NCBI GenBank assembly: GCA_902628525.1
Contig: CACOMZ010000001.1
Span: forward strand, 1 to 64,000
Direction: 5' to 3'
Length of the DNA stretch: 64,000 nt
DNA from: an uncultured Pelagibacteraceae bacterium
Lineage (GTDB): Bacteria > Pseudomonadota > Alphaproteobacteria > Pelagibacterales > Pelagibacteraceae
Shown: piece after piece, positions 44,297-49,249 of the stretch
Layout of the letters: each line of letters begins with the position of its first letter
Numbering within the stretch: the first letter of the stretch is position 1
Notes under the pieces: model-generated
The model's input: the letters and a program-made list of their open reading frames with translations, nothing else
Told to the model about the DNA's origin: nothing
The model's database searches: none
Translations under genes and position numbers: made by a program

Positions 44297-45694
44297 CTAA
44301 ATCTTTCTTAAAATTAATAATGAAGAAGTGGTCTCTAAAAATAATACTATTAATTCTTTATTCTTTGCAACTACTATGTCTCTTACTCTTTCATTTATTG
44401 GAATATAGTTATGTTTAATAATTTTTTTATAATTTTTATCAAATTCAATCAAGTGTAATCCTAAATCTTGATCTTTAATTTCGTTACCCATTGAGCCTAT
44501 TAAAAAAATATTATCATTTTCACTAATTGACTTAACTTCACTAATCCCAATAGAAGGATCAAAATATTTAATGGGTTCCTCAAAGCCATATTTTTTGTGA
44601 CTTTTATTTAAAGGAGCTTCTTTCAAAATTCTTTCTGAATAATTCTTATGGTAATGTTCACCATATGAGGAGATTGGCCAACCAAAGTTTTTTATTTTAG
44701 CAAATGGATTAAGATTTAAATTTATTTCATCACCACCTTTAGGTCCATGTTCAGTTGATAAAATAAAATCAAATTTTTTACTATAAAATAAACCTTGTGG
44801 ATTTCTATGTCCACTTGAAACGATTTCACTTTTTTTTGATTTCAGATTAATTTTTATTATTTTACCAAAATCGCTTTTTAAATTTTGTGCAAGAGGTCTG
44901 TTTCTAAAATCTCCAGTTGTAAAAAGTATATTTTCATCATCTAACAAAAAAATTCGACCACCAGCACCTTGATGAGCCCAATATCCGTGTGAATTATTTG
45001 TATCAATACAATTTGAGGGTTTAAAAAATTCTTTAAAGTTTAAAAATTCGAAATTTAAGTTTGCAGTAATAATTTTTAAATCATAGCAATCTTTTTTTTC
45101 CTGATCTATATAAGACACATAAATTATATTGTTATCTATAAAAATATCTTTTATGCCATACTGTAAATTTGAATAAAATTCGCCATAGTCTATGAACTGC
45201 TTAAAGTTAGAATTAATTTTCTTAAAATTTTTAATATTATCTAAATCAGAGAATGCAAAAATTCCATCATATGTAGCTAAAATTAAATTTTGATCATTAT
45301 TAAAAAAATCAATGTAAGCAGTCCCATTAGCATTTATATTTCCACTAAATAAAATATCTGATGTCGTAAACTTAGAAAAGAGATATTTATCAAGATGTTT
45401 ATCAAGTTTTTTTTCTTTTAATAACCTTTGATCAATAAACTTACTTAATTTTAAATTTTCAAATTTTTTTTTAAATTCTATACTTTTTGGATTAATTATA
45501 TTGTTAATATTATTCTCATTTATAAGTAAATTTTTTTGAATTTTTGCAATTTGTTGATTTCTAATATTTAACTGCATTGCAAAATTTCCAATTTCATTTT
45601 TTTTAGAAAAGGAATTTTTTTTATTAATGAAATATCCCACCAATAACAAAAGGACTAAAAAGAGGAATATACTATAATTGATTATTTTTCTCAT
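44297..45694 (-). CDS. Membrane-anchored glucose/sorbosone dehydrogenase-like protein
   Basis: 465 residues with one N-terminal helix (residues 6-24, IFLFLVLLLLVGYFI) and a probable periplasmic beta-propeller of the PQQ-type glucose/sorbosone dehydrogenase family (GSDH). Recognisable parts: HGYWAHQGAGGRIFLLDDENILFTTGDF, SGHRNPQGLFYS, the signature STEHGPKGGDEINLNL, and FGWPISSYGEHY. Whether it binds PQQ or is an oxidoreductase at all is unknown; several GSDH homologs have no shown activity. A coiled-coil-like segment lies before the propeller. Divergent from the methyltransferase gene across 264 bp. Confidence 0.75.
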   Translation of the reverse strand: MRKIINYSIFLFLVLLLLVGYFINKKNSFSKKNEIGNFAMQLNIRNQQIAKIQKNLLINENNINNIINPKSIEFKKKFENLKLSKFIDQRLLKEKKLDKHLDKYLFSKFTTSDILFSGNINANGTAYIDFFNNDQNLILATYDGIFAFSDLDNIKNFKKINSNFKQFIDYGEFYSNLQYGIKDIFIDNNIIYVSYIDQEKKDCYDLKIITANLNFEFLNFKEFFKPSNCIDTNNSHGYWAHQGAGGRIFLLDDENILFTTGDFRNRPLAQNLKSDFGKIIKINLKSKKSEIVSSGHRNPQGLFYSKKFDFILSTEHGPKGGDEINLNLNPFAKIKNFGWPISSYGEHYHKNYSERILKEAPLNKSHKKYGFEEPIKYFDPSIGISEVKSISENDNIFLIGSMGNEIKDQDLGLHLIEFDKNYKKIIKHNYIPINERVRDIVVAKNKELIVLFLETTSSLLILRKI

Positions 45695-45958
45695 CGTCTA
45701 TTACGTTTAAAGTATCCTTACCTTATTTAAAGAAGAAATTTTTATAATTTTATTTTTGATCATATTTATATTATATTTTATTTTAAATTATTTTTTTGTA
45801 TGTAAATAAAAATGACACGTACACCTAATTAATAATCATTTTTTGAAGTTTTTTGTGGTGATAGAATACTATATGATACTTAATTTAGCTGAAAATATAC
45901 CTTATAATAATGAACATTAAAGTTGATAATGCAATTAGCTAATTCTTAATAAAATACA
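45695..45958. other. AT-rich intergenic region, 264 bp
   Basis: The longest gap in the window. I see no ORF above 40 codons and no RNA gene. It holds promoter-like pairs on the plus strand: TTGAAG (45843-45848), 18 bp, TACTAT (45867-45872), and a second, closer to the gene, listed separately. It separates the GSDH-like gene from two isolated methyltransferases. Confidence 0.6.
45923..45952 (+). promoter_or_regulatory. Candidate promoter, leaderless geometry
   Basis: TTGATA (45923-45928), 18-bp spacer, TAATAA (45947-45952), 6 nt, then the ATG at 45959. Weak -10. Inference, given weight only by the repeated geometry elsewhere. Confidence 0.3.
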
Positions 45959-46993
45959 ATGTTCAAAGAATATATATATTTAACAGATTTATCACCATCT
46001 CAAATTGAGGCAGTAAAAAAATTTAATAATAACTTGGATATTAAATATGAAAAATTGATAACTTGTGAAATTTGTAGCTCTAAAAACTTTAAAGTGTTAT
46101 TTAACAATGATCGCTATGGAATAAGTCAAAAAACATGTTTATGTAAAAATTGTGGTCTAATGTTTTCCAATCCAAGAATGACTAAAAGATCGAATAAACT
46201 TTTTTATAAATCTGACTTATATAGATTAATTTATGAGCCAAGTGTAAAAAATATTGATAAAGAAGAATTATTCAAAAGCACTCTAAAGGAAATGAGAGAT
46301 TATAAACCATCTATTCCAAAAAAACCCGTTTTTAATAATTACTATTCTAATTTATATTTTGATTTTATTAATAAAGAAATTAAAGATTTTAAAACTGTAT
46401 TAGATATTGGATGTGGGAAAGGAAAAAAGTTAGTTGATTTTAAATCTATTGGTAAAAAAACATATGGAATTGAACCCTCGGAAGTTTATCATAAGGTTCA
46501 TAGTGAGCTAGGTTTAAATTCTAAAATAGGTTTTATTGAAGATGTAGAAGATAAGAGCGATTTAGTGTTATTGACACATGTTTTCGAGCATTTAAGTGAT
46601 TTAAAAAAAAATGCAAATCTGTTGTGTAATATTACTAACAAGTATCTTTTCATCGAAGTACCTGGTCACATAAATAAATTACAAAGTATACAAAATGCTC
46701 ATAACTACTATTTTAGTTTTAATACTTTAAATTATTTTTTTTTAAATAATAAATTTAAACTAATTAAAATTGATTACGCAAGAGATAATGAATATATTTT
46801 TGCGCTTTATAAAAAAACAGATAAAAAATCAGAAATGATGTTTGATAAGGCATCAGAATTAAATAATGTAAGTAGGATAACAAGAAAATATTTTTTTACT
46901 TACATTATCACAAAGACATTAAAATTTATTAAAATTGAAAGAGTTTTAAGAAACTTTTATTCTAAAATAAAAAAAAAATTTAATCTAAACTAA
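45959..46993 (+). CDS. Class I SAM-dependent methyltransferase with N-terminal zinc ribbon
   Basis: 344 residues. The N-terminal part has two CxxC pairs, Cys36-Cys39 and Cys62-Cys65 (CEIC and CKNC), which form a zinc ribbon. A SAM-binding Rossmann domain starts near residue 138: VLDIGCGKGKKLVDF, then YGIEPS (acidic ribose-binding residue) and LTHVFEHLSDLKKN. Proteins of this layout are sugar or nucleotide-sugar C- or O-methyltransferases in surface glycan clusters. The substrate is unknown. It sits with an FkbM methyltransferase beside ssrA, away from the glycan genes at the window's left end. Confidence 0.8.
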   Translation: MFKEYIYLTDLSPSQIEAVKKFNNNLDIKYEKLITCEICSSKNFKVLFNNDRYGISQKTCLCKNCGLMFSNPRMTKRSNKLFYKSDLYRLIYEPSVKNIDKEELFKSTLKEMRDYKPSIPKKPVFNNYYSNLYFDFINKEIKDFKTVLDIGCGKGKKLVDFKSIGKKTYGIEPSEVYHKVHSELGLNSKIGFIEDVEDKSDLVLLTHVFEHLSDLKKNANLLCNITNKYLFIEVPGHINKLQSIQNAHNYYFSFNTLNYFFLNNKFKLIKIDYARDNEYIFALYKKTDKKSEMMFDKASELNNVSRITRKYFFTYIITKTLKFIKIERVLRNFYSKIKKKFNLN

Positions 46994-47069
46994 ATAATAA
47001 TTGTACTTTATATTCTAATCAATTTAAAATAATTATTAAATCAAACTTATATATTGCTATTAAACAAAA

Positions 47070-47933
47070 ATGTTAAAAAAACTATCCTGTAAAATTTTTA
47101 GAATTATCGTTTTTTTAGATAAGATCTTTAAAATTATAACAAAAAGGAGTGTAATATTTTGGTTTAATAATTTTCTTCAAGAGAGGTCATATAAATCTAT
47201 TAAAATTTTAGATAATGAAATTAAGTTATTTGTACCTAATATAGTAACAAATTTTAGAGTTGATACATATTTTTCTAAAGAGCCCGAAACAATTGAATGG
47301 ATAAATAGTTTTGAAAAAAAAGAAAATTTAATTTTTTGGGATGTTGGAGCAAATATAGGTTTATATTCGATTTATAATTCTTTAAAAAATCCTAAATCTA
47401 CAACTATCGCTTTTGAACCTTCAAGTTCAAATTATAGAGTATTAACAAGAAATATATCAATCAATAATTTAGAGAAAAAAATAAAGGTAATTCCAATCTC
47501 TCTTACTAATAAAATAAATACTTTTCAACAGATGAATGAAAGTCATTTTATTGAGGGAGGATCATCAAACACATTTGGTGAAAAATATAATTTTGAAGGA
47601 AAAGAGTTTGAACCAAACATGAAATATATTTCGCTTGGAACAACTATGAATTATTTTATTGAAAATTCAATTTTAGATATTCCTGATTATATTAAAATTG
47701 ATGTAGATGGTATTGAACACCTAATACTTGAAGGAGGTAATAAATTTTTAATTGATAAAAAAGTAAAGAGTATATCTATTGAAATAAATGAAAACTTCAA
47801 ACAACAATATGAAAAAGTTTTAAATTTAATGAAAAAGTACAATTTTAAATTTCTACATAAAAAACATACTGATAATATGTCTATTGATGGTAGATTTAAG
47901 AAAGTTTATAATTTTATATTTATAAAGCAATAA
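47070..47933 (+). CDS. FkbM-family methyltransferase
   Basis: 287-residue SAM-dependent methyltransferase. The FkbM core has WDVGANIGLYSIYN, IAFEPSSSNYRVLTRN, VIPISLTNK, IPDYIKIDVDGIEHLILEGG and a C-terminal strand. FkbM enzymes often O-methylate sugars in polysaccharide or glycolipid. A basic N-terminal tail (KLSCKIFRIIVFLDKIFKII) may bind membrane. It follows the other methyltransferase by 76 bp and ends 68 bp from ssrA. Confidence 0.86.
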   Translation: MLKKLSCKIFRIIVFLDKIFKIITKRSVIFWFNNFLQERSYKSIKILDNEIKLFVPNIVTNFRVDTYFSKEPETIEWINSFEKKENLIFWDVGANIGLYSIYNSLKNPKSTTIAFEPSSSNYRVLTRNISINNLEKKIKVIPISLTNKINTFQQMNESHFIEGGSSNTFGEKYNFEGKEFEPNMKYISLGTTMNYFIENSILDIPDYIKIDVDGIEHLILEGGNKFLIDKKVKSISIEINENFKQQYEKVLNLMKKYNFKFLHKKHTDNMSIDGRFKKVYNFIFIKQ

Positions 47934-48001: not shown

Positions 48002-48259
48002 GGGGCGTTCTGTTGCCAGGTGCCCCGGACCCCGTTTGCTTAATTAACAATGTTAATTAGGCAGCAAGTGCGTAACTTTCGTTAGCAATTATAAATTAGC
48101 CCGTTACGGTGGAACAATCCCGAACGAAAGAATAACTTTTAGTCATCCGTCGAATCTAGTTCACCCCCGCAAGTTGTAATGGTGGAGGTGGTGGGTACTG
48201 CCCCCACGTCCGCAATGGTTATTACGAAATTCGTTTATCGTCGTAGTTGGAAATCCAAC
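48002..48259 (-). ncRNA. ssrA: Two-piece (permuted) tmRNA
   Basis: Alphaproteobacterial two-piece tmRNA read on the minus strand. The acceptor piece comes first: hairpin at 48259-48246, then GCGGACGTGGG, T loop GGCAGTA, CCCAC and CACCTCCACCA (CCA at 48182-48180). An 11-nt spacer (48179-48169) follows. The coding piece starts at 48168 with GGGGGTGAACTAGATTCGAC. The acceptor stem GGGGGTG/CACCTCC pairs fully and has G3-U70, the alanine identity element. P2 pairs 48123-48136 with 48218-48235 (GTTATT/AATAAC and TTCGTT/AACGAA). The tag frame 48086-48057 reads ANESYALAA then TAA. A GGGGC/GCCCC pair lies near the 3' end. Ends are approximate. Confidence 0.93.
48057..48086 (-). other. tmRNA proteolysis-tag reading frame
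   Basis: GCT AAC GAA AGT TAC GCA CTT GCT GCC TAA, giving A-N-E-S-Y-A-L-A-A. The YALAA end is the ClpXP-recognised terminus seen in Escherichia coli tag (ANDENYALAA). The stop is followed by an 8-bp hairpin (TAATTAAC/GTTAATTA). Confidence 0.9.
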
Positions 48260-48265
48260 ATTATT

Positions 48266-48293
48266 AATATAAAAGGAATTACAATAGATTCAA
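48266..48293 (-). promoter_or_regulatory. Candidate ssrA promoter
   Basis: Minus strand TTGAAT (48293-48288), 16-bp spacer, TATATT (48271-48266); start expected near 48259, just before the acceptor piece's first hairpin. It lies directly upstream of the thyX ATG at 48302 on the other strand. Confidence 0.6.
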
Positions 48294-48301
48294 TAACATT
48301 C

Positions 48302-49249
48302 ATGAAATTAACCAAAGAACAATCAGAAGAGATTAAAAACCAACAATCACAAAGTAATCAAACTAAAAGAGTTACATCTCCTGAGCTTGAAAAAATACTT
48401 TATGAAGCACTGCCAGCCTTAGATCATGGCTTTGTAAGAGTTGTTGACTATATGGGTGATGACACGTCGATAGTTCAGTCTGCCAGAGTTTCTTATGGAA
48501 AAGGTACTAAACAAGTTTCAACAGATAAAGGTTTAATAAAATATTTAATGAGACATTGGCATAGTACTCCATTTGAGATGTGTGAAATTAAATATCATAT
48601 AAAGCTTCCCATATTTATTGCTAGACAATGGATTAGACATAGAACAGCAAATGTAAATGAATACTCCGCAAGATATTCAATTTTAGATAAAGAATTTTAT
48701 TTGCCCTCTGCTGATAATTTAGCAGCACAATCTATTAGTAACAGGCAAGGAAGAGGAGATATTCTCGAAGGGAAGCAAGCAGATGAAGTTTTAAATCTCT
48801 TAAAAACTGATGCTGAGAGAACTTATGATAATTATGAAACTATGCTTAATGAAAGATACGATGGATCAACTATTGATGAAAACAAAAAAGGATTAGCAAG
48901 AGAACTTGCAAGAATGAATTTAACATTAAATACTTATACCCAATGGTATTGGAAAACTGATTTGTTAAACTTGATGAATTTTTTAAGATTAAGAGCTGAT
49001 AGTCATGCACAATATGAAATAAGAGTTTACGCAGATATAATGTTAGATACAGTTAAAAAATGGGTACCTATAACCTACGAAGCATTTATGGATTATAGAG
49101 TAGGTGGAACGGAAGTTTCTGCAAAAGGAAAAACTATAATACAGAAAATTATTAAAGGAGAAAAAGTTGATGTAGATAGCTCGGGTCTTTCTAAAAGAGA
49201 ATGGAATGAATTAATGACAGCTTTTGATCTTAAAGATAGATTGATTTAA
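48302..49249 (+). CDS. thyX: FAD-dependent thymidylate synthase
   Basis: Makes dTMP using methylene-THF with FAD and NADPH. The ThyX signature RHR-x7-S is seen as [14 protein letters not shown]; other blocks are [38 protein letters not shown] and [17 protein letters not shown] start at the ATG at 48302 (315 residues). The frame is open back to 48179, but that part is the acceptor piece of ssrA on the other strand and resembles no ThyX. No thyA is seen. Ends with a 20-bp overlap with mrp. Confidence 0.96.

Follow-up and report, generated by a model that had tools for sequence, protein, structure and literature searches.

The minus strand of the window (the whole stretch of 64,000 nucleotides analysed here) carries at positions 48259-48002 what is almost certainly a complete and functional circularly permuted, two-piece tmRNA gene (ssrA) of a bacterium that gene order and composition place among the SAR11-type alphaproteobacteria of the Pelagibacterales. 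The gene as such is not new: according to an account of 2009, the orthologue in P. ubique is permuted in the same way and lies beside a mis-started thyX (PMC2704228). The tmRNA itself is ordinary, and worth more than the gene is a clade-level lead that starts from its 3' tail: in relatives, the last 23-25 nt of ssrA (48026-48002 in the window) recur downstream as repeats in the same orientation and bound gene cassettes of 0.2-4.3 kb. The features of the locus are the following.

48180-48259, minus strand: acceptor piece, the 3' half of the tRNA-like domain (RF01849 and RF04321 alignments, ARAGORN, pairs in 84 aligned sequences)
48169-48179, minus strand: spacer between the pieces, 11 nt, TTACAACTTGC, expected to be removed (from the sequence; 9-17 nt in 83 distinct relatives)
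48002-48168, minus strand: coding piece, with the 5' half of the tRNA-like domain, the tag frame and the 3' hairpin (RF01849 alignment)
48057-48086, minus strand: tag reading frame, ANESYALAA and stop (ARAGORN coding part 189-218 of a gene starting at 48274; 9-residue tag in 83 of 83 relatives)
48191-48207, minus strand: T arm, loop GGCAGTA (two-sided T-stem changes, G-C to C-G and T-A to A-T, in 13 of 84 sequences)
48002-48026, minus strand: terminal hairpin GGGGCACCTGGCAACAGAACGCCCC, an attachment-site-like core (single copy in the window and assembly; repeated downstream in some relatives, where it bounds gene cassettes)
45959-47933, plus strand: two methyltransferase genes in DNA of about 20% GC, between ssrA and a sorbosone-dehydrogenase-like gene (Pfam; absent there in L064, L100, L116, L119 and L120)
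48302-49249, plus strand: thyX from its likely true start (Pfam Thy1, 2.7e-55; start in relatives; re-start in P. ubique, PMC2704228)

The Rfam scores of the window gene are far above chance. RF01849 (alpha_tmRNA) matches 48297-47998 of the minus strand with 221.2 bits (E 9.6e-63, gathering score 50 bits) over model positions 1-355, i.e., the whole model, RF04321 (tmRNA_permuted) matches 48242-48057 on the same strand with 126.9 bits (E 2e-24), and ARAGORN calls a permuted tmRNA with the tag ANESYALAA at 48274-47966, also on the minus strand. This is the sole RF01849 match in the assembly (860,989 bases, 67.6% complete). A preliminary description, made from the letters alone, had read an alphaproteobacterial-type two-piece tmRNA here and had proposed the alpha covariance model as a check, and the match of that model over its whole length supports the reading. 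The acceptor piece spans the stretch from a 5' hairpin (48259-48246, the 5' end being approximate) to the encoded CCA (48182-48180), and its C48190-C48184 pair on the minus strand with G48168-G48162 to form the acceptor stem, in which T48186 opposite G48166 makes the G3-U70 wobble. The coding piece, whose ends are placed by homology, begins with GGGGGTGA at 48168 of the minus strand, and P2 pairing is present between the two pieces. The tag codons (GCT AAC GAA AGT TAC GCA CTT GCT GCC TAA) open with a GCN resume codon and close with a hydrophobic -AA followed by a stop, as is expected of the class. All of the features listed in the preliminary description, namely the acceptor stem, the G3-U70 pair, CCA, the 11-nt spacer, the start of the coding piece, P2 and the tag frame with its stop, are thus found in the sequence, and its coordinates fit as well, 48259 being the start of the acceptor-piece 5' hairpin and 48002 the last C of the terminal hairpin.

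RF01849 matches were obtained in 160 of 197 genomes of the family, including 73 of the 77 near-complete ones. The 139 relatives' loci offered for comparison yielded 101 complete tmRNAs, 83 of them distinct and none identical to that of the window; the 38 loci without a tmRNA comprised 26 fetched for a recombinase or SmpB and 12 with tails and an incomplete tmRNA. Conservation of the tag and of the stems across relatives, which had been set as a further check, holds in both respects. Every one of the 83 distinct relatives encodes a tag of nine residues ending in AA (ANESYALAA in 46, ANDKFALAA in 14, ANESYAIAA in 13, ANNKFALAA in 6, ANEQFALAA in 3 and ADESYALAA in 1). The helices of the window tmRNA are kept by compensatory change, in P2 and the T stem: when the 35 Rfam pairs were projected on the 84-sequence alignment, 91.5% of cells held standard pairs, versus 37.5-51.7% in a control with partners slid by 1-3 columns, and two-sided changes occurred at 6 pairs in 59 cells (T stem and P2) versus at most 3 pairs and 7 cells in the slid controls. 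All 83 relatives share the same acceptor letters, a figure partly built in by a selection pattern that permits variation at few positions, and the G3-U70 pair and encoded CCA occur in all 84 aligned sequences, most of that motif having been demanded by the selection pattern. Three of the 35 pairs (48228/48134, 48227/48135 and 48213/48147) are non-standard and do not form in the window, which, like the fact that SmpB appears as a fragment only in its assembly, would fit a decayed tmRNA pseudogene. Yet the same three pairs are mostly or always non-standard in the clade too, the acceptor stem, CCA, tag frame and stop are all intact, and no replacement second copy was found in the incomplete assembly; decay appears extremely unlikely to us, and we retain the reading of a functional gene. 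Of 30 relatives (L003-L032), 28 have CAACTT or CAACTC conserved in the spacer, despite its expected discarding; the exceptions are L020 and L027.

Three details of this tmRNA had been put forward as unusual, a view that the comparisons do not uphold. The 9-residue tag is clade-wide, the 11-nt spacer falls within the range of the 83 relatives (12 nt in 56, 11 nt in 18 and 9-17 nt in the other 9), and the T loop GGCAGTA conforms to GGC(A/G)GTA in 82 of these 83 (AGCATTA in the remaining one) and to GGC(A/G)GT(A/G) in 29 of 29 parsed loci of other alphaproteobacteria. The latter sample consists of the 30 best-scoring loci of other alphaproteobacterial families, one of which was left unparsed and one of which gave no tag; the spacers of the 29 parsed loci measure 10-76 nt (median 37), and the tags, found in 28 of them, have 10 to 17 residues. 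The T loop is therefore general in the alphaproteobacterial sample, and it is the clade, not this genome in particular, that is marked by a short spacer and a short tag. The commonest tmRNA tag length is given as 10 residues, and tags of 2 residues have been reported (PMC11915505). Compared with RF01849 and RF04321 (PMC11915505), the window gene shares the full-length match, the order of the pieces and the T loop, and differs in its shorter spacer and its tag of 9 residues, both of which are general in the clade.

What the gene does we infer from the tmRNA family. Enzymes of tRNA processing would cleave a single transcript, giving an acceptor RNA with CCA at its end and a coding RNA, and the two would be held together via the acceptor stem and P2 pairing. 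Alanine would be charged through the G3-U70 pair, SmpB would carry the tmRNA into stalled ribosomes, ANESYALAA would be added, the ribosome released, and the tagged protein degraded. Besides the anatomy, conservation and covariation of the gene itself, we observe smpB in relatives: of 20 near-complete ones, 18 have a full-length SmpB that passes the curated cut-off (no match in G154 and G162). In the window's assembly, all that is seen of SmpB is a C-terminal piece of 29 positions right at the start of contig C26, scoring below the cut-off, and finding a fragment only is explicable by an assembly that is 68% complete.

On the plus strand, the thyX ORF (48179-49249) overlaps the acceptor piece, so that the stretch could alternatively encode the N-terminus of ThyX, with its resemblance to an RNA being secondary. 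The frame indeed runs without a stop across part of the acceptor piece in the window and in 2 of the 26 relatives with thyX beside ssrA (L012 and L023), and it is likewise open in 6 of the 20 loci of a further set (L063, L064, L065, L066, L068 and L081), where an upstream Met is present. In the other 24 of the 26 relatives, however, the frame meets a stop 84-135 bases before it would reach the acceptor site, the pairing of the RNA is maintained with two-sided changes, and the same reasoning led to the P. ubique thyX being judged mis-started (PMC2704228), making the coding alternative highly improbable. The ThyX frame over the RNA is very probably a mis-start, with the in-frame Met at 48302 beginning the conserved ThyX protein. 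The preliminary description had remarked that the tmRNA gene is easily missed where the ThyX frame runs over it; the overlap is real, the same is published for P. ubique (PMC2704228), and automatic gene calls can place a false ThyX N-terminus over the tmRNA.

The neighbourhood of thyX also bears on a phage origin of the tmRNA, which might be suspected as some phage-type contigs have permuted tmRNA genes, including 8 of 8 viral contigs with the exact 21-nt tail. The tags of all 8 end in ADENLALAA and not in ANESYALAA, though, and the window gene lies beside thyX, which adjoins ssrA in 38 of 48 genus genomes and in P. ubique (PMC2704228), among ORFs that by eye are not phage genes; we give a phage-derived tmRNA almost no credence and keep to a bacterial ssrA. 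The viral contigs in question (IMG/VR, L083-L090) carry tmRNA genes whose last 21 letters are identical to those of the host, and scanning viral contigs for the tail gave these 8 phage-type tmRNA genes and no cassettes.

The repeats of the ssrA tail were evaluated in an unselected set, consisting of all 48 other genus genomes with an RF01849 match (3 with less than 2 kb downstream). Extra copies lie within 9 kb downstream of ssrA in 14 of the 48, 21 copies altogether and all in the same orientation, and none was found upstream of ssrA or inverted in the fetched stretches of these 48 genomes; four scrambled control patterns found nothing in 860,557 bases. Over the last 23 letters the copies agree with the ssrA end at a mean identity of 0.71-1.00; outside this stretch the identity is mostly lower, with scattered higher positions. 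A 21-letter tail pattern is present in 125 of 151 genus genomes, at two to four copies in some of them, and has no match in the 151 when read backwards; a shorter, 13-letter pattern read backwards matches once, in G017, among 21 genomes. Outside the genus, more than one core copy is seen in 4 of 21 family loci, some loci being cut short, and within about 1.5 kb in none of the 30 best-scoring loci of other alphaproteobacteria.

Both filled and unfilled versions of the site exist in relatives. At uninterrupted sites the end of an anchor gene, either a COG4696-like gene (Pfam PRA-PH) or ppdK (Pfam PPDK domains), follows 16-27 bp after the core (L065, L066, L102 and L117) or 49 bp after it (L094), distances being counted from the first letter of a 14-letter search pattern. 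At occupied sites (L063, L070, L071, L077, L101, L110 and L113) the last core lies 13-30 bp from the same anchor genes, and 0.75-4.3 kb are inserted. Together, the occupied and uninterrupted sites form the pattern that site-specific insertion at the tmRNA end would leave. The two marks of an integrase-type island, a direct repeat at the far border and uninterrupted sites in relatives, are found jointly in relatives and not in the window. The last core copy stands apart from any anchor gene at 7 of the 14 positive loci. Additional ORFs separate ssrA from the first anchor gene in 15 of the 34 genus genomes that lack an extra copy, too, which indicates that other insertion routes exist.

Core arrays are also seen at places with no neighbouring ssrA, namely after rnhA (L045 and L060) and after pnp (L046 and L054), these labels resting on Pfam for L060 (RNase_H) and L046 (PNPase) and on inspection by eye for L045 and L054. 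A sequence search gave 19 rnhA loci; a core-like stretch directly follows the gene in one of them (L181), and the next 110 bases of the other 18 show none. Three arrays lie near contig ends, with the first core at base 114 (L043), 50 (L048) and 597 (L061), and ssrA may be situated just off these contigs; in L045, L046, L047, L054, L057 and L060, 5.0-8.6 kb are available upstream of the array, and no ssrA is present there.

In the unselected set, the 21 intervals between cores measure 225 to 4339 bp, with a mean GC content of 29%. A larger set of 43 intervals from 40 loci, partly selected as its first 20 loci were picked for tail matches and a few others were known positives, shows different units with common left ends of about 70 bp and common right ends of 45-125 bp, the middles of which differ. 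It contains three near-identical cassette pairs across different genomes (96.6%, 96.4% and 93.5%), and one near-identical unit lies beside ssrA in L055 and, in L047, without ssrA within 6.3 kb upstream. A second kind of right end, GCAAATATGCTATTTTCTAATCTAATGCCGGGCAACAGAACGCCCC with near variants, was seen beside the GAATAATGGTACAAAGTTCGGGG kind (L044, L045, L051, L053, L058, L059, L061, L113, L114 and L118). The two kinds suggest at least two element families with one common core. Cassettes often hold one to three small ORFs, and 58 of the 72 ORFs of at least 60 residues lie on the strand opposite to ssrA. Sixteen chosen cassette proteins gave Pfam matches above cut-off to GIY-YIG, MrcB_N with NOV_C, MrcB_N, exo/endonuclease/phosphatase, Trypsin_2 (twice), methyltransferase, carbamoyltransferase, glycosyl hydrolase 5, DUF6804 and AhpC/TSA; 5 of the 16 had no Pfam match or only one below cut-off, and none was a recombinase by Pfam. 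PADLOC returned partial-length matches only for 10 cassette proteins.

The 14 cassette-bearing genomes have no recombinase gene beside their core arrays, and thus lack the adjacent gene that would indicate an element-carried integrase; the Resolvase domain of serine recombinases is found in none of the 14. Tyrosine-recombinase matches number one each in 13 of them and two in G168. An orthologue of the 317-aa tyrosine recombinase of G003 (L133, 1459-2409, minus strand) is present in 20 of 20 near-complete genomes tested with 60.9-100% identity (orthologues at L126-L132 and L134-L145), and in seven single-contig genomes it lies 29-37 kb from smpB. This common recombinase has the Pfam catalytic and SAM-like domains, and its nearest solved chains are, weakly, a XerC-like archaeal-type entry and XerD. 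We dropped a reading as housekeeping XerC or XerD, its NCBIfam scores being far below the cut-offs (XerD 72.2 bits against 329.6, XerC 59.8 against 335.2); it may be the clade's Xer equivalent. It also occurs in 6 tested genomes without a cassette at ssrA, so that its presence does not track the cassettes. It may also be identical with the integrase that P. ubique was reported to carry in its hypervariable region 2 (PMC2217521), or it may fill several of these roles, including that of the cassette enzyme.

Taken together, we think it reasonably probable that in SAR11-type bacteria the tmRNA terminal hairpin serves as home site to an integron-like system of cassettes, moved by a recombinase encoded elsewhere. 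The cassettes would enter at the 23-25 nt core in a single orientation, build up tandem arrays with as many as 5 cores, spare the tmRNA end and also use secondary sites after rnhA and pnp. Such cassettes would have conserved left and right ends and an exchangeable cargo of nucleases, trypsin-like proteases, methyltransferases and small proteins with signal-like starts. A candidate for the enzyme that would act on them in trans is the single common tyrosine recombinase; a phage enzyme is another.

Integron gene cassettes stand in tandem and in the same orientation, with a conserved recombination site and a tyrosine recombinase gene elsewhere or nearby. The SAR11 units resemble them in being small, tandem, same-orientation cassettes that each end in a hairpin-capable, recombination-like site, with a tyrosine recombinase elsewhere or nearby, and differ from them in that their ORFs lie mostly opposite to the ssrA strand and that no recombinase is adjacent. 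An integron attC was also considered as the identity of the core and rejected, since its letters probably do not fit the attC core motifs. In an earlier study, attC sites were not found with SAR11 hypervariable regions (PMC2217521). The nearest published parallel that we found is provided by the additive flexible islands of Methylopumilus, which have repeated 20-bp tRNA-Lys ends (PMC10872708): in both cases the recurring last 20 bp or so of a stable-RNA gene mark additive insertions, the SAR11-type case differing in its use of a permuted tmRNA and in units of 0.2-4.3 kb, often with one to three small ORFs. Repeats of the ssrA end are not described among the matches listed in the openly licensed literature searched on tmRNA, SAR11 and integration sites, in the portions of text open to search, and a description elsewhere is possible; the accessible portion of the P. 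ubique account makes no mention of 3'-tail repeats (PMC2704228).

The window shows the site and not a bounded cassette. With a single copy of the core in the window and in the whole assembly, there is no repeat at the far end of the low-GC methyltransferase insert, and no tyrosine-recombinase match was obtained in the assembly at 68% completeness. The methyltransferases are of the FkbM type (47070-47933) and of class I (45959-46993), and as the sorbosone-dehydrogenase-like gene adjoins ssrA in the five relatives named in the feature list, the pair is an insertion relative to these (the dehydrogenase label being Pfam-tested in the window and L064 and assigned by motif in the other loci). The stretch 44297-47933, of about 20% GC and with both methyltransferases between ssrA and ppdK, varies among relatives. 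P. ubique HTCC1062 shares with the window a permuted tmRNA beside thyX and an overlapping, mis-started thyX frame, and its tmRNA region tops a GC-ranked list of intergenic regions without tRNA or rRNA; the window differs in having the two methyltransferases, the sorbosone-dehydrogenase-like gene and ppdK downstream (PMC2704228). Several relatives studied here have a downstream 123-aa ORF that is COG4696-like by eye (Pfam PRA-PH), a label borrowed from the P. ubique neighbour (PMC2704228). In some relatives, the end of ssrA looks as though foreign genes could dock there.

SAR11 bacteria, with their streamlined genomes, rank among the most abundant cells of the ocean. Two SAR11 strains were nevertheless reported to differ by 62 gene insertions in core regions (PMC2217521). 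With a site of 23-25 nt at ssrA, uninterrupted and occupied examples, conserved ends, no recombinase alongside and one common candidate enzyme, the mechanism is directly testable, and if the cassette system is real, it could explain part of the core-region gene insertions and deletions of SAR11 described in 2007 (PMC2217521).
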